The position numbers were made by a program, and so were the translations under genes. Positions 482 through 10,000 of a stretch of DNA of 10,000 bases are shown piece by piece. The notes beneath the pieces are model-generated. The model was not told the DNA's origin and made no database searches. It saw only the letters and a program-made list of their open reading frames with translations. Numbering within the stretch: position 1 is the first letter of the stretch; every line of letters starts with the position of its first letter. Source of the stretch: Chloroflexota bacterium (lineage in GTDB: Bacteria > Chloroflexota > Anaerolineae > Anaerolineales > Villigracilaceae); assembly GCA_020217065.1 (NCBI GenBank), contig JAIWOB010000057.1:1-10000 (forward strand), written 5' to 3'.

Positions 482-1210
482 TTACCCTCCCTTCAAATAG
501 GTCACGCTCGGCAGCGTGCCAAGTTCTTCGTGATGCTTCACGCCGTGACCATGCTTCTTCGCCAGTTGCGAAACCAGCGACTCGGGGTCATCCACCCGCC
601 CGAAGGTGATGGCGTTGGCGGGACAAGCCTGGGCGCAGGCGGTGGTGAACTCGCCGTCCGCGACTTCGCGCCCTTCGGACTTCGCCTTGTCTTGCGCCTT
701 GTGGATGCGCTGAATGCAGAAGGTGCATTTTTCCATCACGCCGCGGCGGCGGACGGTGACGTCAGGGTTCAATTGATTCGGCAACGGTTCGGGACGCTCA
801 TAATCGCGCCAGTTGAAGGAGCGCACTTGGTAGGGGCAGTTATTGGCGCAATAGCGCGTGCCGACGCAGCGGTTGTAAACTTGCAGATTCAACTGTTCGG
901 CTTGTGAGTGGACGGTGGCGAATGCAGGACAAACGGGTTCGCAGGGAGCGGCTCCGCACTGCTGGCACATCATCGGCTGGTTGGGCGTCATCTTCACTTC
1001 GGGATACTCGCCCTCCCAAAAACGTTCGATGCGAATCCAGTGCATCGTGCGTCCGTAGCCCGCGTCCTCCTCGCCGACGAAGGAAATGTTGTTTTCCATC
1101 GCGCAGGCGGCGACGCACGCCTGACAGCCCGTGCATAAGTCCTGGTCAATGAGCATCCCCCACTTGCCCGTCTCCTCCGCGCTCATCTTGATTTCTTCAA
1201 CTTTAATCAT
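482..1210 (-). CDS. actB2: Four-cluster ferredoxin-like iron-sulfur subunit (split ActB, B2 part)
   Basis: This 242-residue electron-transfer subunit corresponds to the C-terminal half (B2) of fused ActB proteins. The cysteines fall in four groups: C26/C29/C32/C36, C82/C85/C90/C94, C115/C121/C125 and C162/C165/C192/C196. The third group reads CVGTRYCANNCP, with Thr118 where the usual second cysteine would be. Fifteen cysteines therefore fit three 4Fe-4S clusters and one 3Fe-4S cluster, the content known for Alternative Complex III. There is no signal peptide of its own, so it presumably crosses the membrane with the Tat-signal subunit B1. The ATG at 1208-1210 lies 2 nt beyond the B1 stop and is preceded by an AGGAG site; Met9 is a possible alternative start. 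Homologous PsrB/QrcC/DmsB subunits are the other candidates. Confidence 0.9.
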   Translation of the reverse strand: MIKVEEIKMSAEETGKWGMLIDQDLCTGCQACVAACAMENNISFVGEEDAGYGRTMHWIRIERFWEGEYPEVKMTPNQPMMCQQCGAAPCEPVCPAFATVHSQAEQLNLQVYNRCVGTRYCANNCPYQVRSFNWRDYERPEPLPNQLNPDVTVRRRGVMEKCTFCIQRIHKAQDKAKSEGREVADGEFTTACAQACPANAITFGRVDDPESLVSQLAKKHGHGVKHHEELGTLPSVTYLKGG

Positions 1211-1212
1211 CT

Positions 1213-3378
1213 CTAATGCTCCTCTCCAAGACCCTTGCCGTATACGCCCATCACGCTTTCGAGGCGCGAAAGCGGCCGCTTCCTGCCAGTCTTTTTGATA
1301 TTGACTTTCATGCCCGCGAAGGCGAGGTCGCCCGCTTCGTTAAAACGTTGACCAAGCAAATCGGCGGGATTGACTCCGCGACCTGCGGCGTAGCGACCGT
1401 AAGCGGTATGTCCCTGCCCAAAGGGGATGGCAATCGTATCGGGGCGGATGGCTGGATACAAATAAGCGGGCGCTTCCACCGTCCCAGCCTCGCTGACGAT
1501 TTGAATCACATCGTCGTCCTCAACGCCGAGTTCATGCGCTGTCGCGGGGTTAATTTCGACCCAGGTGTTCCACATGACTGTGGTGGTCGGGTCGGGCAAT
1601 TCTTGAAGCCAGGGCTTGTTCGCGCCCGCTTCGGCGAGGGTCGGCGAGACAAACGGAATGAAAAAGAACTCGCCTTCGCCCGCAAACTCCGCTTCAACGA
1701 CTTTCAGATTACGGTTGAGCGTGTCCGCCGCGTTGGGAATGACGCGGGCGTCGTAATTCGTCCACCAGCCGCCGTATTGCTGGAAATACGCCATAAAAGC
1801 GGGCAGGTCGGCGGCGGAGAAGAATCCGCCGGCTTCGTTCATCAGCGGCGCGACTTTGCTTTGGATGAATTCGACTTCATCTTTGAACGGCAGCGCGCCG
1901 GCGAATTTTTCGCCTGCAAGTTGAGCGGCGGCAATTAACACGTCAATGGTCGAGCGGGTGTTGTAATACGGCGAGACGACAGGCTGCGACCCCGAAAGCG
2001 CGGACTGGTTTGAGCCAGTGGTCACGCGCTGATAGCCCCAGGACTCAAGCGCGTGATGGTCGGGAAAGACGTAATCCGCCGCCTGCGCCGTCTCATCGGG
2101 GAAGGTCGCAAACGAGATGACCTGCTCCACGCCATCGAGCGCCTTCTTGAATTCAAGCGCGGCGGGAAGTTCAAACACAGGGTTCACGCCATGCACGAAC
2201 AAGACCTTGATTTTTCCGCTTGCCAGTTTCTGTGTGAACTCCTGCATTTCCTTCACGGAAGCGGAACGCTGGTATTCGGCTTGGTTGGGCGCAAGCGGCG
2301 AAAGGAACATGCCGCCCTCTTTGCCGAGGTTGTCGGCGACGGCGTTCAGCGCCAGAACCGCTTCGGCAAGCGCCAGTCCGCTGGTTTGACCCAGCGCCGC
2401 GCCGCCCGGTATCGCCAGCGCGCCGCCCGCTACAACCATCTCGGCGTAGCGCTCGAGGGTTTCAATTTCGACGCCGGATTTGGAAGCGGCATCCATCGGG
2501 TCAATATCGGCGAAGGCGCGGGGCAAAGGTCCGCCGCGTTTTTCGAGAGCCAGCCGTCCGATGGCAAGCGCAACGAGGGTTTCAGTTCCGGGGCGGAGCG
2601 GAATCCACTCGTCGGCTTTTGCCGCTGTGGCGGACATCCGCGCCTCGAACTGAATCAGCTTGCCGCGCATCTTGGTCAACGCCTCGCGCAGACCCGCAAA
2701 TCCGCGAGTGTAGGAGATGGGCGAGAGCCAGGTTTCGAGGAAATTCGCGCCGAAGGAGAGGACCGCCTTCGCGCCGCCCACGTCAAAGAAGGGCATGCCC
2801 GCCTGCCCAAAGAGGTTTTCGGCGGCTTTGGCAAGCGTGGCGCGGGACTCAAACATGCTCAACGCGCCAAAGCGCACCGGGGGGTTGATTCCGGTTTGGG
2901 CGGCAAGGTCGGATACAAGGTCGAAGAGATGGTCGGAGGTTGTCCCCAAAAGGAAGGCAATCTCGCCCGGCTGGTTATTCTTCAAAGCGTCGGCAACTAC
3001 CTGAATGGCGGCGTCCCAGTCCATGGGCTTTCCGCCGCCTTGCGGCTCTTGCACGCGGTCGGGATTGTACAGCCCGTGCAGGGTTGCCTGTCCGCGCGCG
3101 CAGGTCTTACCGAGGTTGAGCGGATGGTTCGCGTTGCCTTCGGTTTTGATGGCGCGTCCCTGCGAAGTGCGGACGACGAGTCCGCAGCCAGCCGCGCACT
3201 CGCGGCATGTGGTGGCGTAATAAGTACTCTGACCGTTGTAGGCGTATTCGGGCATTTCCATGTACGGCTCGCGCTTGACATACCGCGAAGCGGGTCCGCA
3301 GCCCGTGAGGATGGCGGTAGTCGCCGCGCCCACCCCAGCCAGCTTCAAAAAATCACGCCGGGAAAATTTATCAGTCAT
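1213..3378 (-). CDS. actB1: Tat-exported molybdopterin-oxidoreductase-like subunit (split ActB, B1 part)
   Basis: This 721-residue protein of the MopB superfamily corresponds to the B1 half of ActB. It starts with a Tat signal (SRRDFLK, residues 6-12) followed by a hydrophobic stretch and a lipobox-like LTGC (Cys27), so it may be a Tat-exported lipoprotein. A complete cysteine motif C58-X2-C61-X3-C65-X27-C93 predicts an N-terminal 4Fe-4S cluster, followed by CARGQATLHGLYNPDR, typical of the ActB/QrcB-like branch. I see no Cys at the expected molybdenum-ligand region (about 175-200). Family knowledge is that ActB1 lacks a molybdenum cofactor, so it is probably structural or electron-relaying rather than catalytic. 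The ATG at 3376-3378 follows a GAGAGGAAA ribosome-binding site, 21 nt after the actA stop. QrcB-type quinone reductase is the main alternative identity. Confidence 0.85.
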   Translation of the reverse strand: MTDKFSRRDFLKLAGVGAATTAILTGCGPASRYVKREPYMEMPEYAYNGQSTYYATTCRECAAGCGLVVRTSQGRAIKTEGNANHPLNLGKTCARGQATLHGLYNPDRVQEPQGGGKPMDWDAAIQVVADALKNNQPGEIAFLLGTTSDHLFDLVSDLAAQTGINPPVRFGALSMFESRATLAKAAENLFGQAGMPFFDVGGAKAVLSFGANFLETWLSPISYTRGFAGLREALTKMRGKLIQFEARMSATAAKADEWIPLRPGTETLVALAIGRLALEKRGGPLPRAFADIDPMDAASKSGVEIETLERYAEMVVAGGALAIPGGAALGQTSGLALAEAVLALNAVADNLGKEGGMFLSPLAPNQAEYQRSASVKEMQEFTQKLASGKIKVLFVHGVNPVFELPAALEFKKALDGVEQVISFATFPDETAQAADYVFPDHHALESWGYQRVTTGSNQSALSGSQPVVSPYYNTRSTIDVLIAAAQLAGEKFAGALPFKDEVEFIQSKVAPLMNEAGGFFSAADLPAFMAYFQQYGGWWTNYDARVIPNAADTLNRNLKVVEAEFAGEGEFFFIPFVSPTLAEAGANKPWLQELPDPTTTVMWNTWVEINPATAHELGVEDDDVIQIVSEAGTVEAPAYLYPAIRPDTIAIPFGQGHTAYGRYAAGRGVNPADLLGQRFNEAGDLAFAGMKVNIKKTGRKRPLSRLESVMGVYGKGLGEEH

Positions 3379-3399
3379 TTTGATTTCCTCTCGCCCGGT

Positions 3400-3954
3400 T
3401 TAATAATGACAGGTTCCGCAATCGGTTAGTTTGACCAGTTTAGCCTGGTCCTCGCCCGCTACCTGCTTATGACAATTCAAACAAAAGCCCATGTTAAAGA
3501 CCTGCGGATTTTCAGCCACCGTCTGCTTCGACATGTCGCCGTGACAGTTCTCGCAGTTCTGTCCCGCCGCAATGTGGGCGCGGTGGTTGAACTGGACGAA
3601 GTCGGGAACTTGCGCTACGGGAACCCATTGCAGCGGTTTGCCAATCAACACAGCCTGTTTCAACGGAGCGAGAAGGAGGCTGGTTTCAGTCTTGGCAATC
3701 TGGTTATGACACGCCCAACATTTCTCCTGCGAAGGAATACCCGCCGCAGGTCCTTTTGCCGCGCCGGGGTGACAATACAGGCATTGAATGCCGAAACCAA
3801 CATGCAGATTATGAGGAAACTGAACGGGTTGTTCGGGAGCCTGCTGGGTAAGCCAAACGCCATAAGCGGCAAAACTGACCGCCGCCAGCAAAACAATTCC
3901 CACCGCAATCAGACCGAGCGGCTGTTTCAGCCAGTCAAAGAGTCTTTTAAACAT
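3400..3954 (-). CDS. actA: Membrane-anchored pentaheme cytochrome c (ActA-like)
   Basis: This 184-residue multiheme cytochrome has one N-terminal membrane segment (about 12-34) and a periplasm-facing domain. Five CXXCH heme-binding motifs are visible: CLYCH (58-62), CWACH (79-83), CENCH (134-138), CLNCH (158-162) and CGTCH (179-183, one residue before the C-terminus). Additional histidines in FPHNLH and FNHRAH are likely distal heme ligands, as in cytochrome c3/c7 relatives. Five hemes match ActA of Alternative Complex III, whereas QrcA is hexaheme. It would receive electrons from the iron-sulfur subunits and pass them to a periplasmic acceptor or terminal oxidase. It is the first gene of the operon; the ATG at 3952-3954 has CAGGAG six nt upstream. 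A roughly 95-nt leader with a hairpin precedes it if the proposed promoter is right. Confidence 0.9.
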   Translation of the reverse strand: MFKRLFDWLKQPLGLIAVGIVLLAAVSFAAYGVWLTQQAPEQPVQFPHNLHVGFGIQCLYCHPGAAKGPAAGIPSQEKCWACHNQIAKTETSLLLAPLKQAVLIGKPLQWVPVAQVPDFVQFNHRAHIAAGQNCENCHGDMSKQTVAENPQVFNMGFCLNCHKQVAGEDQAKLVKLTDCGTCHY

Positions 3955-4478: not shown

Positions 4479-5087
4479 CTACAGCGAAATCAATCCAAGT
4501 TCGATTCCGCGCCTGACAGTCTCGGCGCGGTTTGACGTCCCCAATTTTGCGTACAAGGAAGAAAGGTGAAACTTCACCGTATGCTCGCTGACGCCAAGCG
4601 TCAGCGCAATTTGTTTATTCGCCAATCCCTGCGCCGTCAACTGCAAGATTTCCGCCTCGCGGGCGGTCAACGGTTCGACAAGCGAATCTTCATTGGAGGA
4701 TTCTTTTCGTTTGAAGTTTTGAAACAATTCCCCGATTAAAGACGGCGCGCCAACCCAAAGCCCTTCCGCCGCCGCGCGGATAGCCGCCGCCAATTCGTCC
4801 TCCGTCGCCTCCAATGAAAGCGCGCCCCAAGCCTGTAAATTTGAATTCAAAATCGAACGCACGGTTTGAGCGTCGTCAGTCAAAAATAGAATCGGAAAAG
4901 CAGGCTTGCTTTCGAGCAAGCGTACAGACGAGACCGACGCAAACGCCGCCACATCGGTCTCGTTTTCGTTTACGCTTGCAAGGTCAATGGTCTCGCCCAC
5001 CACTTTGATGTCGGATTGTCTGCCAAGCATTTCACGCAGACCAATCCGCAAGGCTGGGTTGGGCGAGACGATGGTCACTCGAATCAA
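4479..5087 (-). CDS. NarL/LuxR-type DNA-binding regulator with degenerate receiver domain
   Basis: This 202-residue protein has a receiver-like domain (1 to about 115), a charged linker, and a C-terminal LuxR/GerE helix-turn-helix (about 138-202; LTAREAEILQLTAQGLANKQ, then SEHTVKFHLSSLYAKLG). The HTH looks intact and should bind DNA. The receiver lacks the usual residues: the N-terminal acidic pair is replaced by S8-P9, the expected phospho-acceptor Asp aligns with Ala50, and the conserved Lys near GALSLEA is Leu92; only Thr70 remains. It is therefore probably not controlled by phosphorylation from a histidine kinase, and none is adjacent. The start is TTG at 5085-5087, with GAGGAG five nt upstream; the nearby ATG at 5098-5100 is in another frame. 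It follows the S1C protease gene after a 106-nt gap holding a palindromic repeat. Regulatory target unknown. Confidence 0.85.
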   Translation of the reverse strand: MIRVTIVSPNPALRIGLREMLGRQSDIKVVGETIDLASVNENETDVAAFASVSSVRLLESKPAFPILFLTDDAQTVRSILNSNLQAWGALSLEATEDELAAAIRAAAEGLWVGAPSLIGELFQNFKRKESSNEDSLVEPLTAREAEILQLTAQGLANKQIALTLGVSEHTVKFHLSSLYAKLGTSNRAETVRRGIELGLISL

Positions 5088-6374: not shown

Positions 6375-6761
6375 CTACTCTACATAAATCTCCACGTGTT
6401 CCCCGTCTTCCTCGTCCACCACATCAATAATCTTACCGGTCACGCCCATCCTCAAAGCGTCCATCACATTGGACATGTCCACGCCTTGCACTTCGGGAGC
6501 GAAATGCGCGCCGATTTTCATCCCCGCATCCACCAGCGCCAGCGGAATTTGCACCGACGCTTTCGAGCGTCCCGTGCGAACATCCGTCACGCGGATTCGC
6601 AGCCAGCGCGCCGAGCCGCCCATCCCCGATGGACGCGGCGGCATGGGCATCCCCTTTCTCGCCCCGCTCAACGCCGCCAGCAATTTCGCGCCTTCCTCCG
6701 CGCTGATTTTTCCTTCCTCAATCATCTTCAAAATCTTCATTCGTTCTTCGCTGTTCGCCAT
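6375..6761 (-). CDS. Small protein with N-terminal SHOCT-like module and a C-terminal domain shared with its upstream neighbour
   Basis: This 128-residue soluble protein is the last of the four-gene operon. Residues 4-31 form the helical SHOCT-like module (EERMKILKMIEEGKISAEEG, then AKLLAAL). A Met/Pro-rich linker (about 37-49, GMPMPPRPSG) leads to a C-terminal domain (about 51-128): SARWLRIRV, then IPLALVDAGMKIG, MDALRMG and a final IIDVVDEEDGEHVEIYV. The same order of elements closes the preceding gene (SSRWLYVNV, LPLPLGLAGWF, ILTAISA, VNVDESDGGERVQVFI), so the two are paralogous over this region. No signal peptide or membrane segment is present. The ATG at 6759-6761 follows TTAGGAGACTCAT, 9 nt after the upstream stop. 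I know of no assigned function; a role in assembling with the other module-bearing products is inference. Confidence 0.85.
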   Translation of the reverse strand: MANSEERMKILKMIEEGKISAEEGAKLLAALSGARKGMPMPPRPSGMGGSARWLRIRVTDVRTGRSKASVQIPLALVDAGMKIGAHFAPEVQGVDMSNVMDALRMGVTGKIIDVVDEEDGEHVEIYVE

Positions 6762-6770
6762 ATGAGTCTC

Positions 6771-7391
6771 CTAACCTATGAATACCTGAACCCGCTCGCC
6801 GCCGTCGCTTTCATCCACGTTGACAATCAGCGGTTCGGTTACGGTCTTTGCCGCCGAAATCGCCGTCAGAATTTCATCAACGTTCGTTCCCTTCAAGCCC
6901 TCGATGCGCGAGCCAAAGTTTTTCAAAAACCAGCCCGCCAACCCAAGCGGCAAAGGCAAAGCCAGCGTAATGTTTTCAGGTCCATCAGGCCGGCGCGAAC
7001 GGTCCACGTTCACGTAGAGCCAGCGAGAAGAACGTCCCCCCGCCCCCAGCGTAATCAACAAAATTCCAAGAAAGAACGGCAGGGTCATGCAGAAAAACCA
7101 GAAGTTCAATCCCGCCTTCTGTTGAATGGAGAACATCCACCAGGAGGTCAAAACGGTGAGGAGGATTCCCGCCCCAAGCGGAATCCAGGCGAAGAGTCTC
7201 GCCCGCGCGCGAATCCGGTCGAATTCTTCGGCGTTGATTCTCTCTCCGCCCGAAGTTGATTCAACTTCGACGGCTTGAATCTCTTCTTCAGCCGATTCCT
7301 CCAGCGAACGCATCAACGCCGCAGCCTCTTCCGCGCTGATTTTTCCATCCGCCACCATCTGCAAAATTTTTCTTTTTTCCTCAGCGGACAT
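6771..7391 (-). CDS. Two-TM membrane protein with N-terminal SHOCT-like module
   Basis: This 206-residue protein has a SHOCT-like module at 3-30 (EEKRKILQMVADGKISAEEA), an acidic segment (31-55), and two membrane segments (about 66-88 and 95-117) joined by a short loop. A soluble C-terminal domain (about 121-206) resembles that of the next gene, including the terminal VNVDESDGGERVQVFI. The frame is open for 50 more codons upstream, but I place the start at the ATG at 7389-7391. It overlaps the preceding stop (TAATG), has GGAGG just upstream, and opens directly with the module; a longer form would overlap the neighbour by 150 bp. The 1-nt overlap implies translational coupling. It probably anchors the system in the membrane, with the module and C-terminal domain on the same, likely cytoplasmic, side. 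Function unknown. Confidence 0.85.
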   Translation of the reverse strand: MSAEEKRKILQMVADGKISAEEAAALMRSLEESAEEEIQAVEVESTSGGERINAEEFDRIRARARLFAWIPLGAGILLTVLTSWWMFSIQQKAGLNFWFFCMTLPFFLGILLITLGAGGRSSRWLYVNVDRSRRPDGPENITLALPLPLGLAGWFLKNFGSRIEGLKGTNVDEILTAISAAKTVTEPLIVNVDESDGGERVQVFIG

Positions 7392-8497
7392 TATTCGCCT
7401 CCTTCGAGAGCGGCGAGCAATTTCTCCGCCTCTTCGGCGGTAATTTTCTTTTCCTGAAGCATCTTCAAAATCGCCATGCGCTCTTCCTCTGAAACAGGCG
7501 GCTTGGGCGGCATGGGAACGCCCTTCGGCGACAAATCCCAATTCCAGCGACCCACCCCCACGTTTATCTTCGGTCCGCGGCGGGAGAATTTTTGGTCCAT
7601 GCGGCGGGCAGCCTCGTCGGCGCGGCGAACGGCTTCGCTTGCCTGTTTGGCGGCGCGGCGCGTTGCCTGCTCCACTTGGCGCGAAATCCGCTCACCAAAA
7701 CCGGACCAATCCATGCCAATGCCGGCAAAGTTGCCAAAATCTTCGGCGGTTTCACCGGCGTCCGCTTGATTGGTGACGCGGATATCGCCTCCCGCCGTCA
7801 AGGACACGGTTGCAGAACCGTCTCCAAGCGTAATCACCCGGCTGGTGGCGTCCTCGTCATTTTTCACGCCCTTCCATTCAACGTCAATTTCATCGGCGTT
7901 CAAGCGCAGCGTGGCGTTGGCTGTAGGCGGCATCACCAGCAGAATATCGTCCCCCGCGTTCACCGTGTAAACGTTTCCCGCCTGCGGGTTAAGGTACAAC
8001 ACCACATCCCCCGCTACATTCGCCCCAAGATTACCGCGCGCGTCGCGCAGGGCAAGGTCGTCGGCGACAGTTTCGAGAGAAATATCTCCGTCCACCTCGC
8101 GGATGGCGACGTCTCCGTGGGCGTTTTTGACGAGAAGATTGCCCTTTACGTCGCGCAGGCTGAGGTCGGCGTGAACCGTATCAATCGAAACCGTATTGAC
8201 GCCGCGCAGGGAAAGGTCTCCGCCCACTTCTTTTAGTTGAACGCCGCCGCTCAAACTGCGGATGGACGCGTCGCCGGCGATTTTTTCGATGGAAATGGAA
8301 GCGGCTTTGGGAACTCGCAAAGAGAGGTCGTCTTCACAGGAAATACGCACCTGGTCTCCGTCCTGACGGACCTGAATCAGCCCCTCTTCTCCCTTGACGA
8401 GAATATCGTCCCCCTCCCAGCCGACAAGGCTGAGGTCGCCGGCGACAGACTCGATGAGAATTTTGGGGGCGCGTCCCGCTGAAATCGTCTGCGACAT
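7391..8497 (-). CDS. DUF4097-type beta-repeat protein with C-terminal SHOCT-like module
   Basis: This 368-residue protein resembles the DUF4097 (YvlB/adhesin-like) family. The first ~245 residues are beta-repeats: a D-(hydrophobic/small)-hydrophobic-R pattern such as GDLSLR, ADLSLR and GDVAIR recurs with aspartates at 76, 94, 111, 129, 147 and 164, a period of 17-18 residues that suggests a beta-helix or beta-roll. A basic amphipathic helix follows (about 268-305, ERISRQVEQATRRAAKQASE and onward), then a Trp-containing segment, a PMPPKPP linker, and the SHOCT-like module (338-364, EERMAILKMLQEKKITAEEA). No signal peptide is visible, so it is predicted to be cytoplasmic. The ATG at 8495-8497 lies 2 nt after the DUF2089 stop with GGAGGAA upstream; its stop overlaps the next start. 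Ligand and role unknown; in Bacillus such proteins lie in envelope-stress-linked loci. Confidence 0.85.
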   Translation of the reverse strand: MSQTISAGRAPKILIESVAGDLSLVGWEGDDILVKGEEGLIQVRQDGDQVRISCEDDLSLRVPKAASISIEKIAGDASIRSLSGGVQLKEVGGDLSLRGVNTVSIDTVHADLSLRDVKGNLLVKNAHGDVAIREVDGDISLETVADDLALRDARGNLGANVAGDVVLYLNPQAGNVYTVNAGDDILLVMPPTANATLRLNADEIDVEWKGVKNDEDATSRVITLGDGSATVSLTAGGDIRVTNQADAGETAEDFGNFAGIGMDWSGFGERISRQVEQATRRAAKQASEAVRRADEAARRMDQKFSRRGPKINVGVGRWNWDLSPKGVPMPPKPPVSEEERMAILKMLQEKKITAEEAEKLLAALEGGE

Positions 8498-8499
8498 GG

Positions 8500-8883
8500 C
8501 TATTCCTCCTCGCCGCGCAGGAGGCGGGTGGCTTCCTCGGCGGTAATCCTGCCTGCGCTCAAATCTTCAAGAATTTGGTTGCGCCGTTCCTGCGTAATCT
8601 CAGTCGGCTCCTCGCGCCCCGGCTCATATCCCAACTTGCGGATAACTTCGTTGAGGCGGTTGCGAATGGTTGGGTATGAAACGCCGAGTTCCTGCTCCAT
8701 GCGGTTGATTTTGCCTTCGCAGCGCACAAAAGTAAAGATGAATTCCAACTGTTCGGGAGTCAGGCTCGAAAACTGACCCGCGGAAAAATTTCCTTCGATG
8801 GAAGTGTCGCAAGATGGACAATGAAGACGGACGACAGTCAACTCAGACTGACAAATGGGGCAGCGCGATGGCGCAGGGCGCAT
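8500..8883 (-). CDS. DUF2089-family regulator: zinc ribbon, HTH and SHOCT-like module
   Basis: This 127-residue protein matches the DUF2089 family. It has an N-terminal zinc ribbon with two Cys pairs (CPIC at 8-11, CPSC at 22-25), a region SLTPEQLEFIFTFVRCEG leading into a helix-turn-helix (about 55-85; INRMEQELGVSYPTIRNRLN), and a C-terminal SHOCT-like module (100-124; RRNQILEDLSAGRITAEEAT, RLL). The HTH resembles those of sigma-like or MarR-type regulators and should bind DNA. As first gene of the operon it may autoregulate the three membrane- and envelope-related genes behind it; that is inference. The ATG at 8881-8883 has TTGGAGG eight nt upstream. A 31-nt palindrome lies about 30 bp upstream, close to where the promoter should be. 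Confidence 0.88.
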   Translation of the reverse strand: MRPAPSRCPICQSELTVVRLHCPSCDTSIEGNFSAGQFSSLTPEQLEFIFTFVRCEGKINRMEQELGVSYPTIRNRLNEVIRKLGYEPGREEPTEITQERRNQILEDLSAGRITAEEATRLLRGEEE

Positions 8884-8912: not shown

Positions 8913-8943
8913 GCTCTGTTGGAGGCTAAGCCCCCAACAGAGC
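8913..8943. repeat. 31-nt near-perfect palindrome, related to the terminator hairpin at 4439-4469
   Basis: The arms GCTCTGTTGG (8913-8922) and CCAACAGAGC (8934-8943) pair perfectly and the stem continues almost to the centre. Compared in inverse orientation, it matches the palindrome at 4439-4469 at 28 of 31 positions; in the same orientation, 25 of 31. It lies 21 nt after the MFS stop and upstream of the DUF2089 gene, with no T-run on either strand. It could be a stem that ends or protects the MFS transcript, a dispersed REP-like repeat, or an operator. Confidence 0.7.
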
Positions 8944-8964: not shown

Positions 8965-10000
8965 CTACAAAACAGCAGCCTCGGGGACGGCGTCTAAAAT
9001 CTTCTTCTCCCTTTCTCGCATCCGATGCAGGGCAAGAAAACCAAGCGTGGAGAGTATACCCACAAATCCGGCGGCGTACCATAACAGATACGGTTTTGGT
9101 CCGTCCATAATCAAGCCTGCCAGATAAGGTCCCACGGCAAAGGGGATGCCCCATGAAAACCCTGAGACCGCCATATATCGTCCGCGCATTTCTTCGGGCG
9201 CGAAGGAAGCCACCAAAGCCTGAGCCACAGGCGAGACCACCATCTCGCCCACTGTGAGGATGACCATTGCCGCGACGAACAGCGCATAGGTCGAGACAAA
9301 ACCGTACATCGAGAAGCCAATGACGTACAAGAAAGTTCCCAGCGCCATCATCAGCATCGGCGGATACTTGGAGATGCGGCGCGTAATCGGGAACTGCATC
9401 AACACCACCATGGCGGCGTTAATACTCAACAGAATACCGTACGCCGCTTCGGACGCGCCGTGCTCGTTCCGCAGATACACGCCCAGCGTGGTGTTCATGT
9501 TCATATAAGTAAAAACCTGAAGCATCACCGCGCCCAGGAAGAGCATGAAAGCCGCGTCGCGGAAGACCAGCCCATAGCCTTTGAAGGTTGCCGCCATGCT
9601 TTGTTTCGGCGCGTCGGGATGCGCCTGGGGTTTGGTCTCAGGCAGGAAGAGAAAGATAAGGCTGGCGGTCAACAGAGAAACGGCGGCGTCGGTCAAAAAC
9701 AGAGACAGGTAGGAATAGGCGGCGAGAATCCCCCCAATGGCAGGACCAATCGTCACAGACAGGTTGAACGCCACGCGCAAAATTCCATATCCGTCGGCGC
9801 GCTTTTCTTCGGGCAAAATGTCGGCGACCATCGCCTGATGCGCGGGACCAGCCACGTCGGTCAAAATGCCGACGAAAAGCGCCAAAAAGAAGAAGGTCTC
9901 AAAAGAGCCTATCAAGCCCATCGCCACCGTGCTAAACGAAGAGGCAATCAAACCGAAGATGATGATGCCCTTGCGCCCAAAGCGGTCTGTCAACGCTCCG
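8965..10000 (-). CDS. Major facilitator superfamily transporter, N-terminus outside the window
   Basis: At least 345 residues of an MFS permease are present; the true start lies beyond 10000. At the window edge the frame reads GALTDRFGRKG, the conserved loop 2-3 motif A (GxxxDRxGRK), so about two membrane helices are missing. An in-frame TTG at 9991-9993 is the Leu of this motif, not a start. About ten hydrophobic helices follow, with a hydrophilic central loop (PETKPQAHPDAPKQ) separating the two halves, and a short charged tail (RMREREKK). The second half contains SPVAQALVASFAPEEMRGRY followed by MAVSGFSWGIPFAVGPYLAG, typical of drug-efflux-type (DHA1, YfmO/MdtH-like) transporters. Substrate cannot be told from sequence. 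The stop is TAG at 8965-8967. Confidence 0.9.
   Translation of the reverse strand, partial: GALTDRFGRKGIIIFGLIASSFSTVAMGLIGSFETFFFLALFVGILTDVAGPAHQAMVADILPEEKRADGYGILRVAFNLSVTIGPAIGGILAAYSYLSLFLTDAAVSLLTASLIFLFLPETKPQAHPDAPKQSMAATFKGYGLVFRDAAFMLFLGAVMLQVFTYMNMNTTLGVYLRNEHGASEAAYGILLSINAAMVVLMQFPITRRISKYPPMLMMALGTFLYVIGFSMYGFVSTYALFVAAMVILTVGEMVVSPVAQALVASFAPEEMRGRYMAVSGFSWGIPFAVGPYLAGLIMDGPKPYLLWYAAGFVGILSTLGFLALHRMREREKKILDAVPEAAVL

Follow-up and report, generated by a model that had tools for sequence, protein, structure and literature searches.

PspA-free Toastrack neighbourhoods were described by Ravi et al. (2024), together with a DUF2089 architecture composed of a zinc ribbon, a helix-turn-helix (HTH) and a SHOCT-like domain (PMC11237479). 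SHOCT-like domains were noted there at both protein termini, in the N-terminal region in the case of CAB15517.1, and, judging from domain architectures, were proposed to serve as membrane anchors; for the contexts as such a membrane-to-transcription role was proposed (PMC11237479). In two-hybrid experiments, the partners of YvlB of Bacillus subtilis included PspA, LiaH and further members of the Yvl group (PMC9239133), and LiaX of enterococci, which combines a helical N-terminal part with a beta C-terminal part, was reported to inhibit envelope signalling (PMC10269926). The canonical SHOCT domain is a short two-helix module, usually located at a protein end and accompanied by many partner domains; one such domain did not oligomerise in a published test, and nucleic-acid binding was raised as an alternative (Eberhardt et al. 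2013; PMC3581485). Anchoring, oligomerisation and other binding are candidate roles of SHOCT-like modules.

The operon considered here, located in a window of 10,000 nucleotides (the whole stretch of DNA analysed), comprises four genes designated A to D (Table 1). Its DUF2089 architecture, Toastrack partner and SHOCT-like modules at both termini resemble the contexts of PMC11237479. At the same time, four modules in a single operon and the paralogy of C and D are not mentioned in section 27 and related passages of that paper, whose own four-gene context may nevertheless overlap with the present operon, and the terms "MFS", "major facilitator" and "microprotein" occur 0 times in its main text. 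The statement of an earlier sequence-only reading that this gene combination had no known function does not wholly hold, given the PspA-free Toastrack/DUF2089 contexts in PMC11237479; related gene groups have been known since 2024, and the present operon is a version with extra parts that the passages named above do not describe. The operon type is unnamed in the titles and abstract openings of the SHOCT-like, DUF2089 and toastrack literature, most subscription journals lying outside this search.

Like YvlB of the B. subtilis yvlABCD operon, the product of gene B is a Toastrack protein. We take CAB15517.1 to be YvlB, which would place the YvlB module at the N-terminus, whereas the module of B here is C-terminal. 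A further difference from yvlABCD is that no PspC domain was found among the Pfam matches of A–D, and that PspA is nearly absent in this lineage: PF04012 exceeded its cut-off in 2 of 61 related genomes, against 9 of 14 controls, and reached 19.9 bits in the operon's own genome (66% complete), under the cut-off of 33.9. In this group, nearly devoid of PspA, the operon is a candidate for an envelope response. LiaX acts on LiaFSR, whereas in this operon the DNA-binding protein itself bears the module; the comparison of C with the NCBIfam LiaX model stayed at chance level (E 0.42). The likeness of A–D to canonical SHOCT lies in the short two-helix module, but it is PF22746 that they match, and no match to the canonical family was obtained at E up to 1 in the Pfam search, the filters of which drop most very weak matches. 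We give an even chance to the reading that this operon is related to the Toastrack envelope-stress systems, is free of PspA and uses the SHOCT-like hairpin as a connector common to its proteins.

Organization and distribution of the operon

The genes are tightly packed, and the previously noted gaps of 2, -1 and 9 nt between A-B-C-D were found again, -1 being a TAATG overlap; the start of C lies inside a longer open frame (6771-7541). Both PF22747 (50.8 bits) and PF09862 (81.3 bits) matched A above cut-off, and the zinc-ribbon Cys residues and the SYPTIRNRL motif were conserved at 90% or more among 71 sequences, so that A has the zinc ribbon and HTH of a DUF2089 regulator, with a borderline SHOCT-like part. 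Gene B belongs to the Toastrack/DUF4097 family (PF13349, 27.3 bits against a cut-off of 22.9). When A, B, D and the D profile were compared with the sequences of solved structures, no convincing match emerged; the best one for A was the HTH region of a repressor (E 0.037).

Table 1 Features of the operon, its neighbour and the related microproteins (positions in the window unless a locus is given)
Feature	Position (nt)	Strand	Description
Gene A	8500-8883	(-)	DUF2089 regulator: zinc ribbon + HTH + C-terminal SHOCT-like, 127 aa
Gene B	7391-8497	(-)	DUF4097/Toastrack protein, 368 aa
Gene C	6771-7391	(-)	SHOCT-like + two TM helices + ββααββ domain, 206 aa
Gene D	6375-6761	(-)	SHOCT-like + predicted ββααββ domain, 128 aa
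SHOCT-like module of A	8512-8589	(-)	Residues 99-124; PF22746 24.6 bits, under cut-off
SHOCT-like module of B	7394-7486	(-)	Residues 338-368; PF22746 34.8 bits
SHOCT-like module of C	7293-7382	(-)	Residues 4-33; PF22746 37.1 bits
SHOCT-like module of D	6660-6749	(-)	Residues 5-34; PF22746 45.6 bits
Two TM helices of C, short outside loop	7038-7202	(-)	Predicted from hydropathy and K+R distribution
C-terminal domain of C	6777-7028	(-)	Homologous to C-terminal domain of D
C-terminal domain of D	6381-6611	(-)	No Pfam match above cut-off
MFS gene upstream of A	8965-9993	(-)	PF07690 169.4 bits; partly in window
SHOCT-only microproteins	L192:2970-3110, L194:1829-1972, L195:3520-3663		46-47 aa, conserved acidic tail

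A contig scan with D yielded 136 relatives, from which the best 80, with titles naming Chloroflexota, were taken; these loci are the closest matches and form an uneven sample with a few near-identical pairs. The order A-B-C-D was present in 68 of these 80; of the other 12, ten are truncated by the end of their contig, and two are true exceptions (L105, A-D; L106, A, short B, D). An order unique to the operon's own genome was thereby rejected. Conservation of the gene order was supported, as was the tight packing, in a single unit, of genes for a Toastrack protein, a membrane protein and a predicted DNA-binding protein. In the 68 complete loci, the A-B gap ranged from -4 to 5 nt and the B-C gap was -1 in 55; C and D were separated by 1-123 nt in 42 loci and by 1.28-1.65 kb in 26. 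Under a strict rule, an MFS gene occupied the larger C-D gap in 24 of the 26; for the two left over, the open frame of this gene starts inside C.

Across the phylum, the D profile matched 133 of 301 sampled genomes. A wider sample of 40 loci was composed of 39 regions (38 genomes with 24 family labels, chosen among the matches listed) and one Paraclostridium plasmid region. DUF2089 was located near D in 36 of the 40, the Paraclostridium plasmid included, and four had no A; the D domain was not recognised in three. With distances taken between stop-to-stop open frames, 26 loci had a D-type gene within 300 nt of A; among these, the neighbour at L145 is a C/D-like gene and the true gap at L156 is larger due to an early frame start; in ten other loci the distance was 0.86-2.1 kb, with a recognised B between them in at least five. 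The orders met were A-D, A-D-B, A-B-D and A-B-C-D, A-D-B being common elsewhere in the phylum, and in Niallia (Bacillota) A and a D-like gene stand in tandem (SHOCT-like, 32.7 bits). The wider core is A with D. Wherever detected, the module is C-terminal in A and B and N-terminal in C and D; the "switch" from C- to N-terminal position that had been read along the operon is therefore not a true transition, since the position is fixed per gene and it is the gene order that varies in the phylum.

Homology and properties of the SHOCT-like module

The module corresponds to PF22746 (SHOCT-like_DUF2089-C; curated cut-off 27 bits), which B, C and D pass. The module of A is borderline: under the cut-off at the protein level, it reached 27.4 bits, just above it, at 8506-8589 in a six-frame search. 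The same search of the operon's own genome (1.6 Mb, 66% complete) gave no match beyond the four. When the four segments were compared as profiles, all six pairs gave probabilities of 95.9-99.1%. One homologous module in all four products, as had been proposed, was thus borne out, and unrelated helices or chance as the source of the motif were rejected on the basis of the Pfam scores, the six-frame search and the pairwise profiles. The residue pattern written earlier for all four products is exact in A, B and D; its strict form fails in C, where the first two positions are E-K, and fits once K is permitted.

Hydrophobic positions are conserved in both helices of the hairpin. This pattern, together with the small size, suggests that the hairpin would be stable only when touching something. 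That something may be the inner membrane face, to which, following the proposal of Ravi et al. (2024), made from architectures (PMC11237479), the hairpins would anchor each protein separately with no mutual binding. The hydrophobic pattern agrees with such anchoring, and so does the charge of the D module (median net charge 0, positive in 20 of 81). At the same time, the medians for A, B and C were -4, -3 and -3, with none of these modules positive, and negative charge fits protein contact better than contact with an anionic membrane. Moreover, C keeps its module although it already has two TM helices. We consider separate anchoring unlikely, and the SHOCT-only microproteins also speak against it.

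These microproteins of 46-47 aa (Table 1) sit between B and C in three genomes among the loci examined, and a fourth genome (G007, also L081) has a 54-aa version with a different tail. For the three, dN was 0.11-0.12 against a dS of 0.36-0.59 in a very short alignment; dN well under dS indicates purifying selection. A SHOCT-only microprotein is a lone module and has no cargo to anchor, so that such lone modules, the negative charge of the A, B and C modules and the module retained by the membrane protein C together favour protein-protein contact over an anchor. The regulator, the Toastrack protein, the membrane protein and its small paralogue all bear the module, which in a few genomes also stands alone; this makes assembly versus anchoring testable with only a few small proteins.

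Binding of nucleic acid by the module, a hypothesis raised for SHOCT in PMC3581485, would suit the predicted DNA-binding protein among the four products; given that the modules of A, B and C are acidic and that the Toastrack product and the membrane-spanning C bear the module as well, we regard it as most improbable.

Assembly of the operon proteins through their hairpins is plausible. In favour of the hairpin as connector stand the linkage of the module to DUF2089, the conserved gene clustering, the lone modules, the negative charge of the A, B and C modules, the predicted topology of C and the frequent MFS neighbours. Several observations count against it. A canonical SHOCT domain was non-oligomerising in PMC3581485, the D module is near neutral, and the A module is weak and the most divergent of the four: two of its sites, hydrophobic in the other three modules, are mostly occupied by the residues D and E. 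In the wider sample, the module was detected in 28 of the 36 loci that have A, in 15 of the 23 B genes and in 38 of the 40 genes with a C/D domain; its lack of detection in the remaining eight, eight (one of them, L158, cut by a contig end) and two also counts against the connector.

Linkage of the module to DUF2089

SHOCT-like matches were found in 53 of the 61 related genomes, and DUF2089 matches likewise in 53 of 61. Among the matches listed for these genomes, 139 of 150 SHOCT-like matches lay within 6 kb of DUF2089, and the remaining 11 were on contigs without a listed DUF2089 match. Two of the 139 sit 171-174 nt from a DUF2089 profile match and, by distance, are probably the DUF2089 protein's own module. 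Conversely, DUF2089 matches above cut-off in these genomes had another SHOCT-like match within 6 kb in 58 of 61 cases.

A second DUF2089 copy was found at five loci (L186-L190), where it is directly followed by an open frame of 428-516 aa with a SHOCT-like module near the N-terminus and no Toastrack match. At L187, the one sequence inspected by eye, the module (35.7 bits) is followed by repeats of about 27 residues, and no Pfam family besides the module exceeded its cut-off. The regulator family thus has the module in common with two types of partner that are unrelated to each other.

This linkage, with its two partner types, bears on the possibility that the module stems from an old duplication and has its own purpose in each protein, such as self-association or binding of a common third partner, with no assembly via the module. 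Identity between the modules of different genes is only 31-51%, and B is often without the module in other classes. In a FastTree tree of the short modules, A and B were monophyletic and D nearly so, but not C, so that the A, B and D modules have long separate histories. The strong tie of SHOCT-like matches to DUF2089 and the unrelated partners argue in the opposite direction, and we hold independent purposes to be rather unlikely.

Returning to the hairpin as connector, its extended form would be a code of plugs and sockets, in which paired hairpins would bring the DUF2089 regulator to any of several exchangeable partners (Toastrack, TM protein, ββααββ protein and repeat protein) and the SHOCT-only microproteins would compete for the sockets. 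We put this forward tentatively, as a rather unlikely extension; if true, single-module signalling would stand in place of PspA-based envelope responses in this Chloroflexota group.

C and D as paralogues

The description of D as a small soluble protein was incomplete, since D is not unrelated to its neighbour: by profile alignment, C and D are paralogues, C having two TM helices between the SHOCT-like module and the C-terminal domain. The two profiles aligned over their full length (99.3%, E 7.4e-21), the TM helices of C forming an insertion. Without the SHOCT-like part, the C-terminal halves still aligned in hhalign (97.7%, E 1.8e-12), against control values for the D domain of 0.2% with A and 0.1% with B. 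D is strongly conserved, with a mean column identity of 78% (79 sequences); the value for C is 50% (73 rows).

The AlphaFold2 model of D (mean pLDDT 70.9, pTM 0.45) has helices at 3-16 and 21-32, a low-confidence linker and then a ββααββ arrangement, and that of C has the order HH-TM-TM-EEHHEE (mean pLDDT 60.5), the last domain being of low confidence. Sequence and profile searches with the C-terminal domain of D gave no convincing PDB match, and a Foldseek search of the PDB with the medium-confidence D model returned nothing at E 0.001 or better. The C-terminal domain shared by C and D has no Pfam match above cut-off and is tied to DUF2089 in two phyla. In C, the mean number of K+R was 4.7 before the TM helices, 0.2 in the loop and 3.5 after them (76 rows), and an N-in/C-in topology with both ends cytosolic is predicted.

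Additionally, small genes directly follow a D-like gene on two Bacillota plasmids (L185:5467-5748 and L164:6421-6702). By eye, they could encode a D domain that lacks the hairpin; profile comparison gave this weak support (29%, and 84.5% in an alignment of just 26 columns).

Possible mechanism and genomic neighbourhood

If the hairpins connect the operon proteins, that of the DUF2089 DNA-binding protein would pair with the hairpins of its partners under the membrane, where C would be held by its TM helices, and B and D via C. The state of the membrane could alter this pairing, so that the regulator would be freed or retained, and the regulator would then control the operon that encodes it, together with the MFS transporter next to that operon.

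The MFS gene upstream of A is possibly in the same transcription unit as the operon. Among the 68 complete loci, 22 have such a gene no more than 300 nt upstream of A and 27 have one between the end of B and D; both positions are occupied in 4, which gives 45 loci in total. The two MFS types have about 20% identity over 311 residues, and for each of them none of the best 25 NCBIfam models reached its cut-off; the best sub-cut-off scores came from H+ antiporter and multidrug-resistance models, and by sequence the proteins may be exporters.

Perfect inverted repeats in the 120 nt upstream of A were compared among 70 loci and the window, and none was widely shared, a result that counts against the regulatory reading. 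The hairpin GCTCTGTTGG...CCAACAGAGC at 8913-8943, between the MFS gene and A, has no T run after it; in the 70 upstream stretches, L034 alone repeats it, and L038 has a form with a single change in each arm. On account of this narrow recurrence it was rejected as a general operator.

An HtrA-like protease gene comes after the operon in the window, and one was located downstream on the same strand, at 96-3276 nt, in 10 of the 68 complete loci within the flank examined. The window also encodes a LuxR-type protein (4479-5087) with a GerE domain and with no receiver domain called by Pfam; a relative of this gene comes after the HtrA gene in several related loci. The genes at 482-3954 (-) look, by eye, to be of the iron-sulfur, molybdopterin and multiheme types and to resemble a respiratory complex.
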